Below, piece after piece: positions 56,357-64,000 of a DNA stretch of 64,000 bases (position 1 is the stretch's first letter; the number at the start of each line of letters is the position of its first letter). The notes under the pieces are model-generated. The model saw nothing but the letters and a program-made list of their open reading frames with translations, did not search any database and had not been told where the DNA came from. Location: the NCBI RefSeq assembly GCF_000014225.1, contig NC_008228.1, positions 3,968,001 through 4,032,000 on the forward strand, in the 5' to 3' direction. The translations under genes and the position numbers were made by a program. The DNA comes from Paraglaciecola sp. T6c (GTDB lineage Bacteria > Pseudomonadota > Gammaproteobacteria > Enterobacterales > Alteromonadaceae).

Positions 56357-57187
56357 ATGTTCACTGCTGATGAATACGCAAACCGTGCCACTGAGTCATT
56401 CGCTTTACCTAAAATTTGTATACAAATTCGCACGCTGCTGGACAGCAACAATGCCAGCACGGACGATATCGCCAGACTTGTCTCTACCGACCCAGCCCTT
56501 AGCTCCAAACTTCTGAAGCTGGCCAACAGTGCCTTGTTTCGTTTTGAATCTCAGGTGGATAACATTAATAAAGCCGTTAATGTGGTGGGCGGTGAAGCGC
56601 TGTATAACTTAGTGATGGCCGAGACGGCTGGCTCTGCGTTTGAACATTTCAGCAACGACGTCATTGATTTAAAGCGTTTCTGGTTACAGAGTATCTACGC
56701 TGCATTGGTGGCTAAACATTTAGCAAAGATGACGCAAACCCGCACCAGTGCTCGGTATTTTGTTATCGGCTTATTGCACAATATTGGTGAACTCATCGTG
56801 GCTGTACAAACCCCTGAATTGGCAATTGCCTGTAACGATTACGACCAACATGTACCACCTTGGAAACGCCAAAAGTCAGTACTGGGATTCTATTATACGG
56901 ATTGTACTCATGCGTTGTTAAAACAATGGGGACTCCCTGCGCATTTGTACCAAGTGTTGCCAGATGCCAACAATGAAACGGCCGCAAACTCGAGCCATGA
57001 AGCAAGCCTAATGTTTATAGTTTGCCGCGTGGCTGTTGCTATGGTTTATCCTGATAAGTTTAGTGCTTCAAGTGTGATTCACCCGATGATTTTGCGCAAA
57101 GCGGGTTTAGAAGAACAAGACATAACGGACGGTATAAAATTCGCACACATGGAAGCACAAACGATGATTGAACTTCTTAGCCCCTAA
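56357..57187 (+). CDS. HDOD-domain signalling protein
   Basis: A 276-residue protein with an HDOD domain (about residues 15-215), a catalytically altered relative of HD phosphohydrolases. It begins RATESFALPKICIQIRTLLD and has DDIARLVSTDPALSSKLLKLANS, the family core (span). A possible metal site is reduced: HNIGEL stands where HD-GYP proteins carry HDIGK. HDOD proteins often act in signalling tied to c-di-GMP or two-component pathways. It is close to, but not obviously cotranscribed with, the DUF481 genes downstream. Confidence 0.85.
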   Translation: MFTADEYANRATESFALPKICIQIRTLLDSNNASTDDIARLVSTDPALSSKLLKLANSALFRFESQVDNINKAVNVVGGEALYNLVMAETAGSAFEHFSNDVIDLKRFWLQSIYAALVAKHLAKMTQTRTSARYFVIGLLHNIGELIVAVQTPELAIACNDYDQHVPPWKRQKSVLGFYYTDCTHALLKQWGLPAHLYQVLPDANNETAANSSHEASLMFIVCRVAVAMVYPDKFSASSVIHPMILRKAGLEEQDITDGIKFAHMEAQTMIELLSP

Positions 57188-57290: not shown

Positions 57291-58097
57291 ATGTTTCGAA
57301 GAATAATGCTTAGATACCTCATCTTGCTGGCACTATGTTTCCCCTGCCATGCTCAAATAAACATTATGCGCTCACTCTACATGTCCGACAGCGGTGGAAA
57401 CCTTCCAGCCTCTGGAAGCAACATCACGGCCACCGGTGAATTAGGTTTACTGTATAACAAGGGCAATACCAACTCTTCCAGTGTCAATGCTAAATTTAAT
57501 ATCAGTCACGAACTCGAGAAATGGAGCTATCAAGCGATTGCCAACACTCGGTATAAGACCTCAAAGGAAGCAGATGATGGGGGGGATGAATATGATGTCA
57601 CTACGGCTCAGAAGAACTTTATCTCCACCCAAATAGACTTTAAGCTCGCCTCGCCGGATGAACGGATCTTTATTTACGCCGAATATGAAAATGATCGGTT
57701 CGATATTTATGACTACCAAACTTTAGTCGCCAGCGGTTGGAGCGAACGCCTTTGGCGTGACGAGTTTAGCGAGTTCAAATACAGTGTAGGACCGGGTTAT
57801 GCTATCGCTGAAGCCAAAAACGACGAAGAAAATGATGACTTACAAGGCGTCATTCTACGTACTGCTTTGGAATACACCTTAGAAATATCTAAATCAGCGC
57901 AGTTTCGCCAGTTTATCAGCACAGAAACCGATCCCGAATACACCAAAACAAAATCAGAAACGTCACTTTCCACTAAAATATTTGGTTCATTAGCCATGAA
58001 GCTGTCCTTCATTATGGAACACAACAGCAACGCCGAAGTGAGCCAAGAGAGCCTAGATACGGAAACCGCTGTTACGCTTGTTTATCAATTTTTCTGA
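57291..58097 (+). CDS. DUF481 outer-membrane beta-barrel protein (copy 1)
   Basis: A 268-residue protein with a signal peptide (cleavage after CHA, about residue 21) and a DUF481 beta-barrel of alternating strands, ending VTLVYQFF with terminal Phe. It shows the family stretch ATGELGLLYNKGNTNSSSV near residue 44 and SVGPGYAIAEAK in the middle. The function of DUF481 (YdiY) proteins is unknown. It is paralogous to the next gene, and some positions are closely shared, for example KFEYSVGPGY versus FKYSVGPGY. Confidence 0.85.
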   Translation: MFRRIMLRYLILLALCFPCHAQINIMRSLYMSDSGGNLPASGSNITATGELGLLYNKGNTNSSSVNAKFNISHELEKWSYQAIANTRYKTSKEADDGGDEYDVTTAQKNFISTQIDFKLASPDERIFIYAEYENDRFDIYDYQTLVASGWSERLWRDEFSEFKYSVGPGYAIAEAKNDEENDDLQGVILRTALEYTLEISKSAQFRQFISTETDPEYTKTKSETSLSTKIFGSLAMKLSFIMEHNSNAEVSQESLDTETAVTLVYQFF

Positions 58098-58146
58098 TGC
58101 GCCATCGCCCTAACAAATTTACTTTTCAACTTAAGGATATTTTTAA

Positions 58147-58884
58147 ATGAAAAAAACGCTTATCGCCACTGGATTACTCCTTGCGGGAAATGCCTTCGCC
58201 CAAGAAGAAGTTAAACCATTTTCTATGGATGGCGAGCTGGGCTTTATCGCTACCTCAGGTAACACAGAAACCACGTCTTTGAATGCTAAGTTGTCTGCTC
58301 ATCAAGAGTTAGAGCAATGGAGTAATGATTTCTTATTCGAGGGTTTATATAAGAAAGATGATGTCACCCTTGATGATGATACTAGTGAAAGCCAAACTAC
58401 AGCGCAGAAATTCTTTATCTCTGGTCAAGGTAACTACAAGTTAGCCAACCCTGATCACCGTTTATTCGCGTTCGGTTCATACGAAGATGACCGTTTCAGC
58501 AGCTTTAATTATCAATCAACCGTTGCCGCGGGTTGGAGCCAAAAGTTGTGGGACAACGAAACCACCAAGTTTGAATACAGTGTGGGTCCTGGTTACTCTT
58601 TTGCTGAAACCTCTGAAGGCGAAGACGCTGATAGCTTTATCGTCCGTGGGGCATTGGGCTTCAATTGGAAAATTTCTGATACCGCAACGTTCAAACAAAC
58701 AATGAGTACGGAAGTCGGTGAAGATAACACTAAGTCTAAGTCCATAAGCTCTATCTCAGCCAAAATAAACAGTTCATTATCAATGAAACTAACCTTAACG
58801 TTCGATCACAACTCGAGTGTGTCTGAAGGAATAGAAAAGCTAGATACGCAAACAGCAGCAACCATCGTTTACACTTTCTTCTAA
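58147..58884 (+). CDS. DUF481 outer-membrane beta-barrel protein (copy 2)
   Basis: A 245-residue protein with a cleaner signal peptide (MKKTLIATGLLLAGNAFA) and the same DUF481 barrel (DGELGFIATSGNTETTSLNA, then KFEYSVGPGYSFAE, terminal AATIVYTFF). It follows copy 1 by 49 bases, so tandem duplication with later divergence is likely, and both probably come from one transcript. AAGGATATTTTTAAATG precedes the start. A bidirectional terminator follows. Confidence 0.86.
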   Translation: MKKTLIATGLLLAGNAFAQEEVKPFSMDGELGFIATSGNTETTSLNAKLSAHQELEQWSNDFLFEGLYKKDDVTLDDDTSESQTTAQKFFISGQGNYKLANPDHRLFAFGSYEDDRFSSFNYQSTVAAGWSQKLWDNETTKFEYSVGPGYSFAETSEGEDADSFIVRGALGFNWKISDTATFKQTMSTEVGEDNTKSKSISSISAKINSSLSMKLTLTFDHNSSVSEGIEKLDTQTAATIVYTFF

Positions 58885-58902: not shown

Positions 58903-58932
58903 AAGAAACGGCAACCATGGGTTGCCGTTTTT
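58903..58932. terminator. Bidirectional terminator between convergent genes
   Basis: AAACGGCAACC pairs with GGTTGCCGTTT around ATG and carries A and T tracts on the two sides. It serves the DUF481 pair and the convergent cupredoxin/GGDEF-EAL/porin operon. Confidence 0.9.
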
Positions 58933-58946
58933 GTATCTATATACTG

Positions 58947-60179
58947 CTAGCGCCATCTGTACTGCGCCACGGCAAGGGTTTGTTGCTGATTTTGTCTTTG
59001 TTGTTCGCCGAGCGTCGAACGAATATCAGCGCGATTACGATTAAAATGTTGCTCTAGCCCCACTTGCCAATTTTTATCAATAGTATAGCGCCATGCCAAG
59101 GTCATAGCCTGCCCGTCGCTGTTGTTTGGATCATCTGGGAATATGTCATCTTCCCTCACCTCAAAGTCATCGTAGCGAGCGCTGAATCGATGTGAGCCGA
59201 CTTTATGGCTGTACATCACATAGTATGCATCGAAATTAATGTATACGAACCGCTGCCCCATGTGGCTGCTGCCTGTTAACCATTGGGCAATGAATCGTCC
59301 ATTTGGCGTGACGTCATGTGAGAACGCTAACGAATGAAACTTAGTACGCCAAGCGTATAAACGCTGAGAATTCACGACGTTTGGATTGGCTTGATTGTCG
59401 TAGAAATAATAACGGACTTTGCTTCTGTGATAGTAATTCAGGTGTGCACCTAGGTAATACCCCACTCTGCTATCAAGCTCATGAAATGGCTCCACATAAG
59501 ACGGATGAAAAATTCCGTTAGGATCCACAACCGTAGGGTAATTAGCGAAAACAACTCTATCATTGTGCAAACTTTGTCTATCGTGCATTGCAAAGCCTCG
59601 CCAGCTAAGCACGGTCCCCAAGGTATCGTTGCCTTTAAATGCCCCTGCTGTTACTTCCCAAGTCAATGGACTGCGACGACTGCGCCCGGAACTAAATAAC
59701 GATCCCTCGATACCCGCAACCCTGAGTTCTTCACCAATCCAACTGTTGATAGCAGATTGCGTATAGGCATAGGGCGATAACCATCCTAAATCAACATTCT
59801 CAAGAGACAAACGCGGGTAAAAAAAACCTGCTCGCCCTTTAAACCGGACCTGGCGATGAGACAAAGGCTTATAGTGTATGGTGGCTTGTGAGATACCCAA
59901 GCGCTGTTCACCTAACTGATACAGGTTAGCACTGACGTCATAGGAAAAACTCGATGATAACCGATCCGTTATTCTCAATACACCTTGCTGTAAATGCACT
60001 GCATTATCTTCATACGCAAGAATACCGGTCCCTTTTTCAAGCCATGGCGCCTGCTCATCACCGTGCACAATATTCGCCTGAATGAGGCCGCTGAGTTGCT
60101 GGGCACTTACAGGGATTTGCCAACCGACTATTCCATAAAAGCCGAGTAACATCACAGACACAAAACGCGATAACCTCAT
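58947..60179 (-). CDS. Predicted outer-membrane beta-barrel protein, unknown family
   Basis: A 410-residue protein with a signal peptide (cleavage after VSA, about residue 26) and alternating aromatic and polar residues throughout, predicting a beta barrel; it ends YRWR, so it lacks the usual terminal Phe. The N-terminal half (SGLIQANIVHGDEQAPWL) recalls porin-like outer-membrane proteins. The ATG at 60179 overlaps the stop of the GGDEF-EAL gene in an ATGA arrangement, showing translational coupling. I do not recognise the family. It is the last gene of a three-gene operon. Confidence 0.65.
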   Translation of the reverse strand: MRLSRFVSVMLLGFYGIVGWQIPVSAQQLSGLIQANIVHGDEQAPWLEKGTGILAYEDNAVHLQQGVLRITDRLSSSFSYDVSANLYQLGEQRLGISQATIHYKPLSHRQVRFKGRAGFFYPRLSLENVDLGWLSPYAYTQSAINSWIGEELRVAGIEGSLFSSGRSRRSPLTWEVTAGAFKGNDTLGTVLSWRGFAMHDRQSLHNDRVVFANYPTVVDPNGIFHPSYVEPFHELDSRVGYYLGAHLNYYHRSKVRYYFYDNQANPNVVNSQRLYAWRTKFHSLAFSHDVTPNGRFIAQWLTGSSHMGQRFVYINFDAYYVMYSHKVGSHRFSARYDDFEVREDDIFPDDPNNSDGQAMTLAWRYTIDKNWQVGLEQHFNRNRADIRSTLGEQQRQNQQQTLAVAQYRWR

Positions 60180-62533
60180 TGTGAGCACGAAGCCAATCCC
60201 TGCTCGGTAAACATTTCATACCAAGAGATTAATTCATCAGCGCGCAATGCCTTAGTCATATAGTAGCCTTGCGCCTTGGTGCAACCGACTTCTCTTAAAA
60301 ATTCTAACGTTTCAAGGTCTTCAACTCCCTCAGCTACGGTTGTAAGCCCTAAATTTTGCGCTAAGCTGACTAGCGTTTTCACCATCACTCTGTCTTCTTG
60401 GTTTGTGGCTAGCGCAAGTACAAATGCCTTATCAATTTTGAGTTCATCTACCGGCATTTTTTTCAATTGAGCCATCGAAGAATACCCCGTACCAAAGTCA
60501 TCGATAGACAAGGTAACCCCCATATCTCGGAGCAGGTTTAATGCCTTAAGGGCATTTTCTGGATCGCCCATAACCGCGCTTTCAGTCACCTCCATTGTCA
60601 ATGCACTGGGGGGTAAATCAAACTCATTGAGCAAAGATTCAATGCTCGCTGGTAACGATAAATCAACTAAATCGATCGCTGAAATATTCACTGCCACGGA
60701 AAAACATATGTTCTTATCACGCCATCGTTTGACTTGCTCACACGCTGTTCTTAATGCCCATTGGGTAACGTGGCGAATAGCGCCTGTTTGCTCGGCTAGT
60801 GGAATAAAATCATCAGGGGGAACGAAACCATGTTCAGGGTGAAACCAGCGTATTAGGCATTCCAGCGTCTCTATTTTGTCGCTCGCGATGGTTAACTTCG
60901 GTTGGTAATGCAGCTCTAATTGTCCCTCGCCTAACGCGCCTTTAAGCTGTGACATCAGGCTCAACCGAACCACTGAGTGCTTGTTAAGTGCATCATTATA
61001 AAGGGCGAATGGATTATGCTGATCTTTACAACTGTACATAGCAATATCAGCACATTGCATAAGCCCTTGCAGCGACGAAGCGTGTTGTGGATAAAGGGCA
61101 ATTCCCATTGAGCAGTCCACATCTAGTACTAGATTTTCTATCTTAAAAGGCTGCTCGAACACGCTCAGGAGATTTTGAGCCACATCTTGCGGGCGTGTAT
61201 TGGCCTCTTGAAGGCCGACCCAAGCATATTCATCTCCCCCTAATCGCGCACAGAAACCCTTGTTTTGCGTATGACTATGTAAACGCTTGGCGATGGCAAT
61301 AAGCAGTTCGTCGCCTAAATCATGACCTAGGGTATCGTTTATCTCTTTGAATCGGTCTACATCTATCATCAACACGATCAACTCGCATTCTGGTGCTTGC
61401 CTGATCATGTCGCTGATATGGTTAGAAAACTGGATGCGGTTTGGGATATGAGTTAGCTCGTCAAAATATGCCAGTTGGTGAATTTGCGCTTCACGATCTT
61501 GGATACCTAGTTGCATATCACTAAAGGCGCTGGAAAGCGTTTCTACTTCTCGAGTGTTTGCACTAGGAAAACTATCAACATTCTCACCGGCACGCATTCT
61601 GCGCGCTGCATCTATCAATTGCTTCAATGGCTTGGTAATTTCGCGTGATAGCAGTGTCGCACCTAACAAACCCAGCGCGGCAGCGGCCAACAAAATGAAG
61701 ATTAATTGACCAATTAAACTTTCATTAGAAAGAAACGCATCATCTTCGTCCATCGACAATACAATAAAAGCCGATTCCCCTTGCCAAGTGCCAAGCTCAA
61801 AAGCACTGTAAATGATGCTGGTAGAATTTAATGGTAGCCTGTGAAGCCCTCGCGTTTTAGCGATTTCACCTTGCTTTTGGCCCGCGACGAAATGCGCTTC
61901 AGGGGTCGCTCCCAACAGCACACTGGCATTGCCACCGAACAGTGATATTTGCATATCGGTTAAATCCACCAGATGTGGTGTGAACAATTTCTTTGCATCA
62001 ATCCCCATCACGACCCAAGCATTGATATGGCCTGACGTTTCGACAAAGCGCACAGGTGTTGAGCGCATAAGGTAGTTACGCCCTTGGTAAGTAAACCAAT
62101 GTAACGCTGCTTTGGAGAAAGCAGGAACGACTTGCTTGCTATTTTCAAACGGCGAATGCGCTTCAATAAGTGGTGTGAAGTCCTTACTCAAAACCCAGTA
62201 GATATCTGCTCCTAAACGGCTCTGGTAGTTTGACATAGCGGAGCTTAATGAGCGTTGATCATTTTTAGCTGTTGCTATGAGTTGCTTCATGCTGAAATCT
62301 TTGGCGAGTGTGGCCATTCCGTTATCTAGCGCACTGGCTCGTCCCTCCACATTGTCCTGAACGACCGCAGCAGAAGTTTGAATATGATTCATTAGTTGAG
62401 CACTAGCGTGTTTGAACGTGGCTTGCTGAACGAAATAAATGGTTACCACGACGATAATACTGAGCAAGAGCAAAAATATGAAAGACATCCGCATTTGCAA
62501 AGATGGTTTAATCAATACGCTTTTGTTACTCAT
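60176..62533 (-). CDS. Membrane GGDEF-EAL protein with periplasmic sensor domain
   Basis: A 785-residue protein with an N-terminal membrane helix (about 15-37), a periplasmic Cache-like sensor of roughly 230 residues, a second helix (about 270-295), a HAMP region, a GGDEF domain with GGDEY at 432-436 and an EAL domain. In the EAL part the first motif reads ECLIRW (558 onward) instead of EALxRW, but the Glu remains, and DDFGTGYSS and the later AEGVED motif are intact. So phosphodiesterase activity is likely; cyclase activity is possible but uncertain. Starting at ATG 62533, it overlaps the cupredoxin gene by eight bases. It is coupled to the beta-barrel gene. Confidence 0.88.
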   Translation of the reverse strand: MSNKSVLIKPSLQMRMSFIFLLLLSIIVVVTIYFVQQATFKHASAQLMNHIQTSAAVVQDNVEGRASALDNGMATLAKDFSMKQLIATAKNDQRSLSSAMSNYQSRLGADIYWVLSKDFTPLIEAHSPFENSKQVVPAFSKAALHWFTYQGRNYLMRSTPVRFVETSGHINAWVVMGIDAKKLFTPHLVDLTDMQISLFGGNASVLLGATPEAHFVAGQKQGEIAKTRGLHRLPLNSTSIIYSAFELGTWQGESAFIVLSMDEDDAFLSNESLIGQLIFILLAAAALGLLGATLLSREITKPLKQLIDAARRMRAGENVDSFPSANTREVETLSSAFSDMQLGIQDREAQIHQLAYFDELTHIPNRIQFSNHISDMIRQAPECELIVLMIDVDRFKEINDTLGHDLGDELLIAIAKRLHSHTQNKGFCARLGGDEYAWVGLQEANTRPQDVAQNLLSVFEQPFKIENLVLDVDCSMGIALYPQHASSLQGLMQCADIAMYSCKDQHNPFALYNDALNKHSVVRLSLMSQLKGALGEGQLELHYQPKLTIASDKIETLECLIRWFHPEHGFVPPDDFIPLAEQTGAIRHVTQWALRTACEQVKRWRDKNICFSVAVNISAIDLVDLSLPASIESLLNEFDLPPSALTMEVTESAVMGDPENALKALNLLRDMGVTLSIDDFGTGYSSMAQLKKMPVDELKIDKAFVLALATNQEDRVMVKTLVSLAQNLGLTTVAEGVEDLETLEFLREVGCTKAQGYYMTKALRADELISWYEMFTEQGLASCSQ

Positions 62534-63167
62534 ATTCACCGAATTCATCTGCCGCATCTTCAAAAGCATTTACATCAGGTAACAGAGCAGAAGGCACACT
62601 CATGCTCACGTGAGTATCACCTTGTATTGATAACATCATTTGAAATGACTCTGGGCTATCGCTAATACGTGGATGCCATGCTTTAAGAGTATATTCACCG
62701 TCAGGCACGCTGATTGTCACCTCGCCTGCGTAGTCCGATTTTTTAAAATACGGTGTATCCACTACATAGATGTAACCCAGCATCCAGTCATGCACGTTAC
62801 ACCCCATTTCCACCACTCCAAGGTTGTCGAACAATAACGGATCCGCCCGTAATCCCTTGTATAGCTCTAACTCAAACACCTTGGCGCTAGAGAACGAGTA
62901 TACGTGATGCTGAATCGAGTCAGAATTAGGAAAACTCACTTGAGTGTTACGCTGAACAGCAAGAATATGCGGGTAAAACTGGGTGTCGACTTGATCCATG
63001 ATCGCCATGTTTTCAACAGGCTCGAAAGATTCCGTTTTCGGTATAAGATAAACCACAGCATTCGCTAATGGGTTTTGCTGGTTATCCAAAAGGGAAACCG
63101 CAATGTTGCCAGCAAAACTGACTGAATTTGCCATGATTAGCAATAGAAAGAGAATGAACCTGGTCAC
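62526..63167 (-). CDS. Periplasmic cupredoxin-like protein (methylamine-utilization-like)
   Basis: A 213-residue protein with a signal peptide (cleavage after SFA, about residue 19). The mature part begins with a beta-sandwich-like segment and contains QVSFPNSDSIQHHVYSFS (His87/His88) and MGCNVHDWMLGYIYV (Cys123, His126, Met129). A His followed by Cys-x2-His-x2-Met is the ligand pattern of a type 1 copper site. Homologues are often annotated as methylamine-utilization proteins without evidence. GTG start with GAGG five bases upstream. First gene of the operon with the GGDEF-EAL and beta-barrel genes. Confidence 0.7.
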   Translation of the reverse strand: MTRFILFLLLIMANSVSFAGNIAVSLLDNQQNPLANAVVYLIPKTESFEPVENMAIMDQVDTQFYPHILAVQRNTQVSFPNSDSIQHHVYSFSSAKVFELELYKGLRADPLLFDNLGVVEMGCNVHDWMLGYIYVVDTPYFKKSDYAGEVTISVPDGEYTLKAWHPRISDSPESFQMMLSIQGDTHVSMSVPSALLPDVNAFEDAADEFGEYE

Positions 63168-63293: not shown

Positions 63294-64000
63294 TTAGTCA
63301 TTTTCGGATAGGCTAGCCAGCACACGCTTAGCTTCATCTGATTGCGGGGGGTGTCCGTTTTCGATGATTTCTTCAAGTAGCTCCGTAGCTGATTCTGTCT
63401 CACCTATTTCGATATAGGCATGCGCCAAATCAAGCTTAGCGCCAAAGCCGTCGTCACTGTCCACGTCAATATGATCAACGTCGCCTTGTGCCCCTGAAAA
63501 CTCCCCCATCACAGACTCTAAATCTAGCGCTTTTTCCGGTGAGGGATCCGCCGTGATACTGTCATTAAGCAAGTCGTCAACGTCCAGAAAATCGCGCTCT
63601 TGTTCATGGGGATCGCTTTCTTCCAGTAAGGTTGCGATGTCCACCGCGTCGTCAATATCCTGTCCGGCTTGATTGGTATTGCTGGGTGACGGCGTGTTTT
63701 CGGTCGTTGCAGAAATGGCGTCGCCCAAATCTTCATCTAAACTTTGCAACATGTCATCGAATGAGCCGGATTCTAGGTTCTCGATGGCCCCTTTGTCGTC
63801 TTCATCTACTTCGTTTAACCAGTCCCCTAGTTCAGGGAATTCATCTAACTCTTCACTGTCTTTATCAAAGGACGGTGCTAATGATTCGTTATCAGATAAC
63901 GCTGCGCTATTGCTAGAGTTATCGTCTAGAACAAAATTATCTAGCGCACGCTCTAACTCATCATCATCAAAATCACCTATGGCATCTATGTCGTCTAAAT
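63294..64000 (-). CDS. fimV: FimV-like protein, C-terminal part (cut by window end)
   Basis: The reading frame stays open from the stop at 63294 to the window edge, giving at least 235 residues; the rest lies beyond 64000. The visible part is an extremely acidic Asp/Glu-rich linker with repeats such as LDDIDAIGDFDDDE, followed by a C-terminal domain GAKLDLAHAYIEIGETESA and LLEEIIENG, the FimV_Cterm type helical/TPR unit. FimV acts at the cell pole in type IV pilus and twitching systems. Internal in-frame ATG codons are not starts. It lies upstream of the cupredoxin operon on the same strand, and is probably unrelated to it. Confidence 0.85.
   Translation of the reverse strand, partial: LDDIDAIGDFDDDELERALDNFVLDDNSSNSAALSDNESLAPSFDKDSEELDEFPELGDWLNEVDEDDKGAIENLESGSFDDMLQSLDEDLGDAISATTENTPSPSNTNQAGQDIDDAVDIATLLEESDPHEQERDFLDVDDLLNDSITADPSPEKALDLESVMGEFSGAQGDVDHIDVDSDDGFGAKLDLAHAYIEIGETESATELLEEIIENGHPPQSDEAKRVLASLSEND

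Follow-up and report, generated by a model that had tools for sequence, protein, structure and literature searches.

The conserved unit at this locus of Paraglaciecola sp. T6c is a cupredoxin together with one subfamily of periplasmic Cache sensor. In the window, by which we mean the whole 64,000-nucleotide stretch of DNA that was analysed, the two are encoded in one operon with an outer-membrane porin, and a previous reading of the sequence alone (the sequence-only reading) had taken the three genes together as a module. The set of three does not hold as a conserved unit: the receptor is missing from half of the loci of the genus and family, the porin is exchangeable, and the output is not always c-di-GMP. 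The gene for the cupredoxin (cup) was found in 36/60 relatives, in 71/398 genomes drawn from the phylum and in at least 595 relatives in a scan of species genomes. To our knowledge it is poorly understood how bacteria convert the copper or redox state of the periplasm into a second-messenger signal, and the pair of cup and receptor with its exchangeable outputs is a candidate that could be tested directly in many Proteobacteria amenable to culture.

The operon in the window and its proteins

All three open reading frames lie on the minus strand where they had been placed from sequence, and the DNA contains both of the overlaps claimed. The first gene, cup (62526..63167), has a GTG start and encodes a secreted protein of 213 amino acids with a signal peptide recognized by eye. 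The second (60176..62533) encodes the receptor, a membrane protein of HAMP-GGDEF-EAL type with 785 amino acids when counted from the ATG at 62533; its longest reading frame starts at 62569. The third (58947..60179) encodes the porin. The stop codon of cup and the ATG of the receptor at 62533 share eight bases (ATGAGTAA), and the receptor stop overlaps the ATG of the porin at 60179 as ATGA. The sequence GAGG lies 5′ of the cup GTG, and GGTGA lies 5′ of the receptor ATG at 62533.

A terminator-like hairpin with an 11-pair stem and a T-rich tail is found 3′ of the operon on the same strand (58906..58930), though shuffled DNA gives about as many, and a scan for sigma-70 promoters and terminators gave site numbers no higher than in shuffles. 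In the 145 upstream stretches none of the FNR/DNR, CRP, CueR-like, NsrR, cop box or Fur consensus motifs stood clearly above shuffled DNA. In the same scan a control motif was above shuffled DNA in the group of loci with the porin family of the window (the OMP group), at 16/39 against 8.0; set beside these nulls, it indicates that the scan has little power.

A fimV/hubP-like polar landmark gene (TIGR03504), represented in the window by its C-terminal part (63294-63998), is found 126 bases 5′ of cup. At the same place L037 (viewed by eye), L038 and L041 also have a long gene, of 1178-1365 amino acids. Shewanella HubP is reported, in the available text of PMC9061725, to activate a GGDEF-EAL phosphodiesterase. 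A link between FimV/HubP and the cup operon was set aside, since the upstream neighbors differ in other genera. On the other side of the operon are two tandem DUF481 genes convergent with it (57291-58884), and a protein that by eye resembles an HDOD-domain protein (56357-57187).

The protein encoded by cup has no match above cut-off in Pfam or NCBIfam. Its AlphaFold (AF2) model, made with 36 aligned sequences, has a mean pLDDT of 88.8, and Foldseek matched it to amicyanin, pseudoazurin, the purple cupredoxin of Nitrosopumilus and plastocyanin with a probability of 1.00 each, over about 90 to 130 columns of the 213-residue model. At the level of sequence, a comparison with solved structures up to E = 1 returned only the blue-copper protein 5fc9 (E = 0.005) and copper nitrite reductase (E = 0.08). 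The proposed copper ligands are His87 (codon at 62907..62909, minus strand, as for the others), Cys123 (62799..62801), His126 (62790..62792) and Met129 (62781..62783), the last three forming a CX2HX2M loop. All four are kept in 146/146 rows of the alignment (145 loci plus the window, two loci being represented twice). Of the loci behind this count, the 80 named ones came from searches with patterns that contain part of the His-Cys-His-Met motif, and the 60 phylum ones from a profile of the whole alignment. The type-1-copper-like pattern that had been read from the sequence is therefore present and invariant, and the modeled site does lie in a cupredoxin fold. By its fold and ligand set we classify the protein as a type-1 copper cupredoxin, which would be expected to bind copper.

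The spacing of the short CX2HX2M loop and the ligand set are those of amicyanin (MauC), and the fold is shared with both amicyanin and pseudoazurin. Relatives of cup carry the annotation 'methylamine utilization protein', a label that may have its source in the amicyanin-like spacing; the module gives a possible origin for this widespread, probably misleading name. Unlike amicyanin and pseudoazurin, the cup model has additional strands on both sides of the cupredoxin core (19-43 and 149-190), and methylamine genes do not adjoin cup in the annotated loci examined. The flanking strands might form a second unit, a sandwich of Ig- or transthyretin-like type that would carry the cupredoxin as an insertion, a reading suggested by a sub-threshold CarboxypepD_reg match at 143-167.

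In the receptor the stretch used for our sensor profile, comprising the periplasmic Cache-type domain and its membrane flanks, lies at 61670..62452 (residues 40-300 of the longest reading frame; alignment A4). It is followed, likewise on the minus strand, by HAMP (61499..61654; PF00672, 25.6 bits with a cut-off of 25), GGDEF (61016..61471; PF00990, 6e-38) and EAL (60251..60949; PF00563, 2e-69) domains, all three above the Pfam cut-offs. The window receptor has no Cache domain according to Pfam, which gives none above cut-off for L037, L147 and L055 and makes no Cache call for L204 and L206. It does place dCache_3 above cut-off in L068, L083, L073, L061, L105, L111, L162, L202, L157 and L079, and CHASE4 in L234, L235 and L232.

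The nine positions that we take to be catalytic in EAL domains are intact in the window, in agreement with the sequence-only reading, and in 99/100 receptor rows, the hundredth being cut at a contig end. The GGDEF motif of the window is GGDEY, and GG[DE]E[FY] is kept in just 27/100 rows. From this difference in conservation the receptor is predicted to be a c-di-GMP phosphodiesterase, and selection seems to act on c-di-GMP breakdown.

Pairing of the cupredoxin with one sensor subfamily

A GGDEF/EAL gene lies directly 3′ of cup in 99/145 loci, and in 96 of those 99 the two overlap or are at most 30 bases apart, measured on the longest reading frames. The conservation of this adjacency excludes a chance arrangement.

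The pairing extends to whole genomes. Among 60 relatives, our own genome included, cup and the sensor subfamily are present in the same 36 and both are absent from the other 24. In the phylum draw (n = 398) both were found in 51 genomes, a strong cup without the sensor in 4, the sensor without cup in 4 and neither in 339, with a Fisher p of about 1e-54 that overstates the certainty because genomes are not independent draws. Here a strong cup has E = 1e-30 or better, which applies to 61/83 places; the 22 weak or partial places (E = 1.7e-18 or worse) were left out. Counting every cup place with E = 0.001 or better gives 51 genomes with both, 20 with cup only, 4 with the sensor only and 323 with neither (p about 7e-43). 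The exceptions in the first count are G076, G079, G269 and G285 (73% complete), which have a strong cup without the sensor, and G071, G174, G196 and G406, which have the sensor without cup.

The sensor lies within 5 kb of cup at 43/58 places in the relatives and 51/65 in the phylum draw, an adjacency that is partly by construction since the profile comes from alignment A4, made from receptors near cup. As a control we used the broad Pfam family dCache_3, which occurs in 6/24 of the relatives that lack cup, whereas the subfamily occurs in 0/24; dCache_3 is itself commoner with cup (32/36), so the control separates the subfamily from the broad family less cleanly. The cup-receptor pairing was seen in alpha-, beta- and gammaproteobacteria and in metagenome-assembled genomes (MAGs) named Desulfuromonadaceae and Rokubacteriota. 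The neighborhood is thus conserved across Proteobacteria, far beyond close strains.

It could still be argued that a common EAL protein has been co-transcribed by accident with an unrelated copper protein and a porin. GGDEF-EAL genes are generally numerous in such genomes, and the receptor gene is dispensable within the genus. Against that stand the recurrence of the same pairing in so many groups, the co-occurrence over whole genomes and the exchange of output domains behind a constant sensor. We consider an association of ordinary neighbors very improbable, and on the strength of the genome-wide co-occurrence we have rejected accidental co-transcription of cup and receptor.

The exchange of outputs is seen when the sensor-region profile is applied to the 145 stretches of up to 16 kb around cup. 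It finds 118 proteins, all within 1.2 kb of cup: 108 are of GGDEF/EAL or EAL type, nine have other outputs and one is truncated. At L061, L105, L111, L157 and L162 the gene following cup keeps dCache_3 and HAMP and ends in a class III adenylate/guanylate cyclase, and at L202 it ends in a Ser/Thr kinase. Hybrid histidine kinases that match the sensor profile lie within 1.2 kb of cup at L079 (on the opposite strand), L204 and L206 (with one reading frame between), the cups of L204 and L206 being distant members. A tree was made of 138 sensor regions, without the truncated receptor of L033: 120 belong to receptors of c-di-GMP type, 12 to histidine kinases, five to cyclases and one to a Ser/Thr kinase. 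At least six changes of output are needed on this tree. The output of the receptor therefore varies, being mostly an EAL phosphodiesterase and otherwise a class III cyclase, histidine kinase or Ser/Thr kinase. In the pair at L202:5029-9058 the cup reading frame that adjoins the Ser/Thr-kinase receptor is long, at 448 amino acids.

Since cup and sensor are the common denominator of these loci, the simplest reading is that cup delivers a signal to the sensor. We suggest that the protein acts as a detachable subunit that provides the input to a membrane receptor of Cache type, comparable to YfiR, a proposal to which we give about equal weight for and against.

Outer-membrane partners, globins and receptor absence

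The third gene had been predicted to encode an outer-membrane beta barrel, and modeling bears this out. The AF2 model (pLDDT 88.2) is a 16-strand barrel of porin type, matched by Foldseek to chitoporin (VhChiP), OmpT, OprP/OprO and DcaP with a sequence identity of only 7-13%, and the protein has no Pfam or NCBIfam domain above cut-off.

We mapped the surroundings of cup in 140 loci, made up of the best 80 of at least 596 pattern matches and 60 from the phylum draw (including a second cup in our own genome). These are 138 distinct loci, as L072 = L159 and L106 = L165; five plasmid loci (L032-L036) are outside this tally and inside the 145. Within 5.2 kb, 71 loci encode a DUF3034 protein, 39 a member of the porin family of the window and 13 a protein of a third family, about 290 amino acids long; 17 have none of these, and two of the families were found together in 0/140. 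Counting only distinct loci alters only the DUF3034 number, to 69. In the phylum draw taken alone (n = 60) the corresponding counts are 32, 13, 3 and 12. PF11231 is present in the two DUF3034 copies scanned. Weak OMP_b-brl and SlipAM matches suggest that the DUF3034 proteins and the third family are outer-membrane barrels as well.

The DUF3034 loci have a further gene. A globin is encoded within 5.2 kb in 71/71 of them and in 0/69 of the others, and the one copy scanned contains Bac_globin. The module thus gives a common context to DUF3034 and to exported truncated globins. The globins keep the proximal His in 74/74 and the CD1 Phe in 73/74, and 47/74 have a lipoprotein-type motif. The presumed distal B10 position is Leu, Ile or Val in 71/74. 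A pair of cysteines is also kept in them (L068:11801-12220 and 73 other loci), in 74/74 and 73/74 respectively, and we know of no such pair in the usual family.

The globin raises the question of whether the system senses NO or O2, which in the periplasm would react with cup and, in the sister layout, with the globin, and in response to which the receptor would lower c-di-GMP. The constancy of the globin at DUF3034 loci, its proximal His, CD1 Phe and lipoprotein-type motif all agree with this, as does a distant cup relative in S. meliloti that lies near cbb3 oxidase and SCO genes. Yet the layout of the window and all 39 OMP loci have no globin within 5.2 kb, no NO-regulator motif stood out upstream, and the residue at the presumed B10 position is not the Tyr of NO-dioxygenating globins. 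We therefore consider a sensor of NO or O2 improbable.

In the OMP group the receptor is frequently absent. Of 20 loci sampled in the genus and family, 19 have cup together with OMP and 10 have the receptor; in nine of the 19 the receptor gene lies between the other two, and L226 has cup and receptor only. No GGDEF/EAL gene is found within 5.2 kb in 22/39 loci of the OMP group, from which cup may work with the porin alone. Receptor presence on the cup tree of this group (27/58 rows, or 25/54 when four loci present under two identifiers are counted once) needs at least 12 changes. The tree was made without L207 (G001), where cup is broken by an in-frame stop; the adjoining porin is retained there. 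At L217 the gap between cup and OMP contains a clear trace of a receptor gene (E = 1.6e-5) and a second, weak one (E = 0.014), which points to loss of the receptor there; no such trace was seen in the gap of L220.

Unlinked proteins of about 870-910 amino acids with the same sensor occur in nine of the sampled genomes, and 9/9 are hybrid histidine kinases by Pfam. They are found in 6/8 genomes without the linked receptor and 3/10 with it, a difference that is not significant (p = 0.15; p = 0.07 with 3/11 when our own genome is counted). The first comparison leaves out our own genome, G001 with its broken cup, G005, which lacks such a locus, and the incomplete G011. Since neither value is significant, we have not retained compensation of a missing receptor by unlinked histidine kinases.

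These data bear on a further possibility, that the functional unit consists of cup and the outer-membrane barrel, with cup as a periplasmic carrier of copper or electrons that is supplied through the porin, and that the receptor only reports on this unit and is optional. The genus and family sample, where the barrel accompanies cup almost always and the receptor in half of the loci, is what would be expected, as are the many changes of receptor presence on the cup tree and the receptor remnants at L217. The added globin with its invariant proximal His would also fit redox chemistry. But the sensor stays constant across three alternative outer-membrane families. Moreover, 11 of the 17/140 loci having cup with none of the three barrels do have a GGDEF/EAL gene, and strong cups without any sensor are few (0/36 and 4/55 genomes). 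On this evidence we think a cupredoxin-barrel unit unlikely, if less so than a sensor of NO or O2.

We favor the reading in which cup signals to the sensor. Taking the evidence further, cup with its dedicated Cache subfamily could be a portable copper or redox head, joined to at least four outputs and three barrels, and in one branch to an exported globin with which the cupredoxin would exchange electrons. Such an undescribed class of receptor is a tentative proposal, held with less confidence than the role of cup as an input subunit.

Possible mechanism, related systems and a second locus

In the mechanism that we propose the protein would be exported and hold one copper ion in an amicyanin-like site, as its modeled fold and conserved ligands suggest. 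Its copper loading or redox state would then set its docking on the Cache domain of the receptor, a contact consistent with the co-occurrence and adjacency of the two. The signal would pass through HAMP to the EAL domain, and the intact catalytic residues point to c-di-GMP degradation as the result, with control in either direction. The barrel may act on cup from the opposite side: it could sequester the protein, in the manner of YfiB with YfiR, or let in a ligand or reductant that sets the state of cup. Copper, redox state or a ligand may be what the module senses.

The nearest comparison is with YfiBNR, in which a periplasmic YfiR, an inner-membrane diguanylate cyclase YfiN and an outer-membrane YfiB act together; according to the available text of PMC3375315 the core of YfiR and the YfiN PAS domain recurs in combination with GGDEF-EAL, Hpt and histidine kinase outputs, whereas YfiB is optional. 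The likeness lies in a single operon for a periplasmic protein, a HAMP-bearing c-di-GMP receptor and an outer-membrane protein, with a core that is reused and an outer-membrane member that is optional. The two differ in their input (a cupredoxin by fold, with no Pfam or NCBIfam match above cut-off, in place of YfiR), in their output (an EAL phosphodiesterase in place of a diguanylate cyclase) and in the outer membrane (a porin-type barrel in place of the Pal-like lipoprotein YfiB). The module was not assigned to YfiBNR itself, as neither the features of YfiR nor the Pal/OmpA-like features of YfiB were found. We read it as a receptor of the YfiR-YfiN kind, controlled by a periplasmic protein and having a copper protein as its input; the module itself is real, widespread and apparently undescribed.

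In NspS-MbaA and ScrABC a membrane GGDEF-EAL receptor is likewise under a separate periplasmic protein. There the controllers are solute-binding proteins and there is no outer-membrane barrel, so the copper protein and the barrel set the cup module apart from these systems.

Copper has been connected with receptors of this type in another way. In vitro, copper binds 1:1 to a CHASE4 domain found in a GGDEF-EAL protein, and PA14_37690 and IsmP (PA2072) resemble the window receptor in having a periplasmic Cache-clan domain on a GGDEF-EAL protein, with copper or iron bound (available text of PMC13277305). In these proteins the metal is on the receptor itself and that text mentions no separate cupredoxin; the words 'operon', 'neighbor' and 'methylamine' have 0 occurrences in a word search of its main text. 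The copper binding of CHASE4 suggests an alternative to redox-dependent docking, in which cup would hand over copper to the sensor.

The statement in the sequence-only reading that no named system has this makeup agrees with our search of the open-access literature (subscription literature being outside it), which returned no description of a system of cup, receptor and barrel and nothing that combines a cupredoxin with 'EAL domain'. The pair 'methylamine utilization protein' and 'EAL domain' gave only a Leptospira transcription study, going by its available text, and a word search of the available text of a review of c-di-GMP stimuli (PMC8846402) found neither 'copper' nor 'cupredoxin'.

Our own genome has both of the main layouts, the OMP layout in the window and a DUF3034-globin layout at L147 (G000:C1:292500-308500), where the genes for cup, receptor, DUF3034 protein and globin abut or overlap (L147:4095-8465). 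The GGDEF motif of the L147 receptor is AGGEL by eye. A separate dCache_3 protein of 830 amino acids is encoded away from cup (G000:C1:70392-70709), and matches of similar length occur in various relatives.
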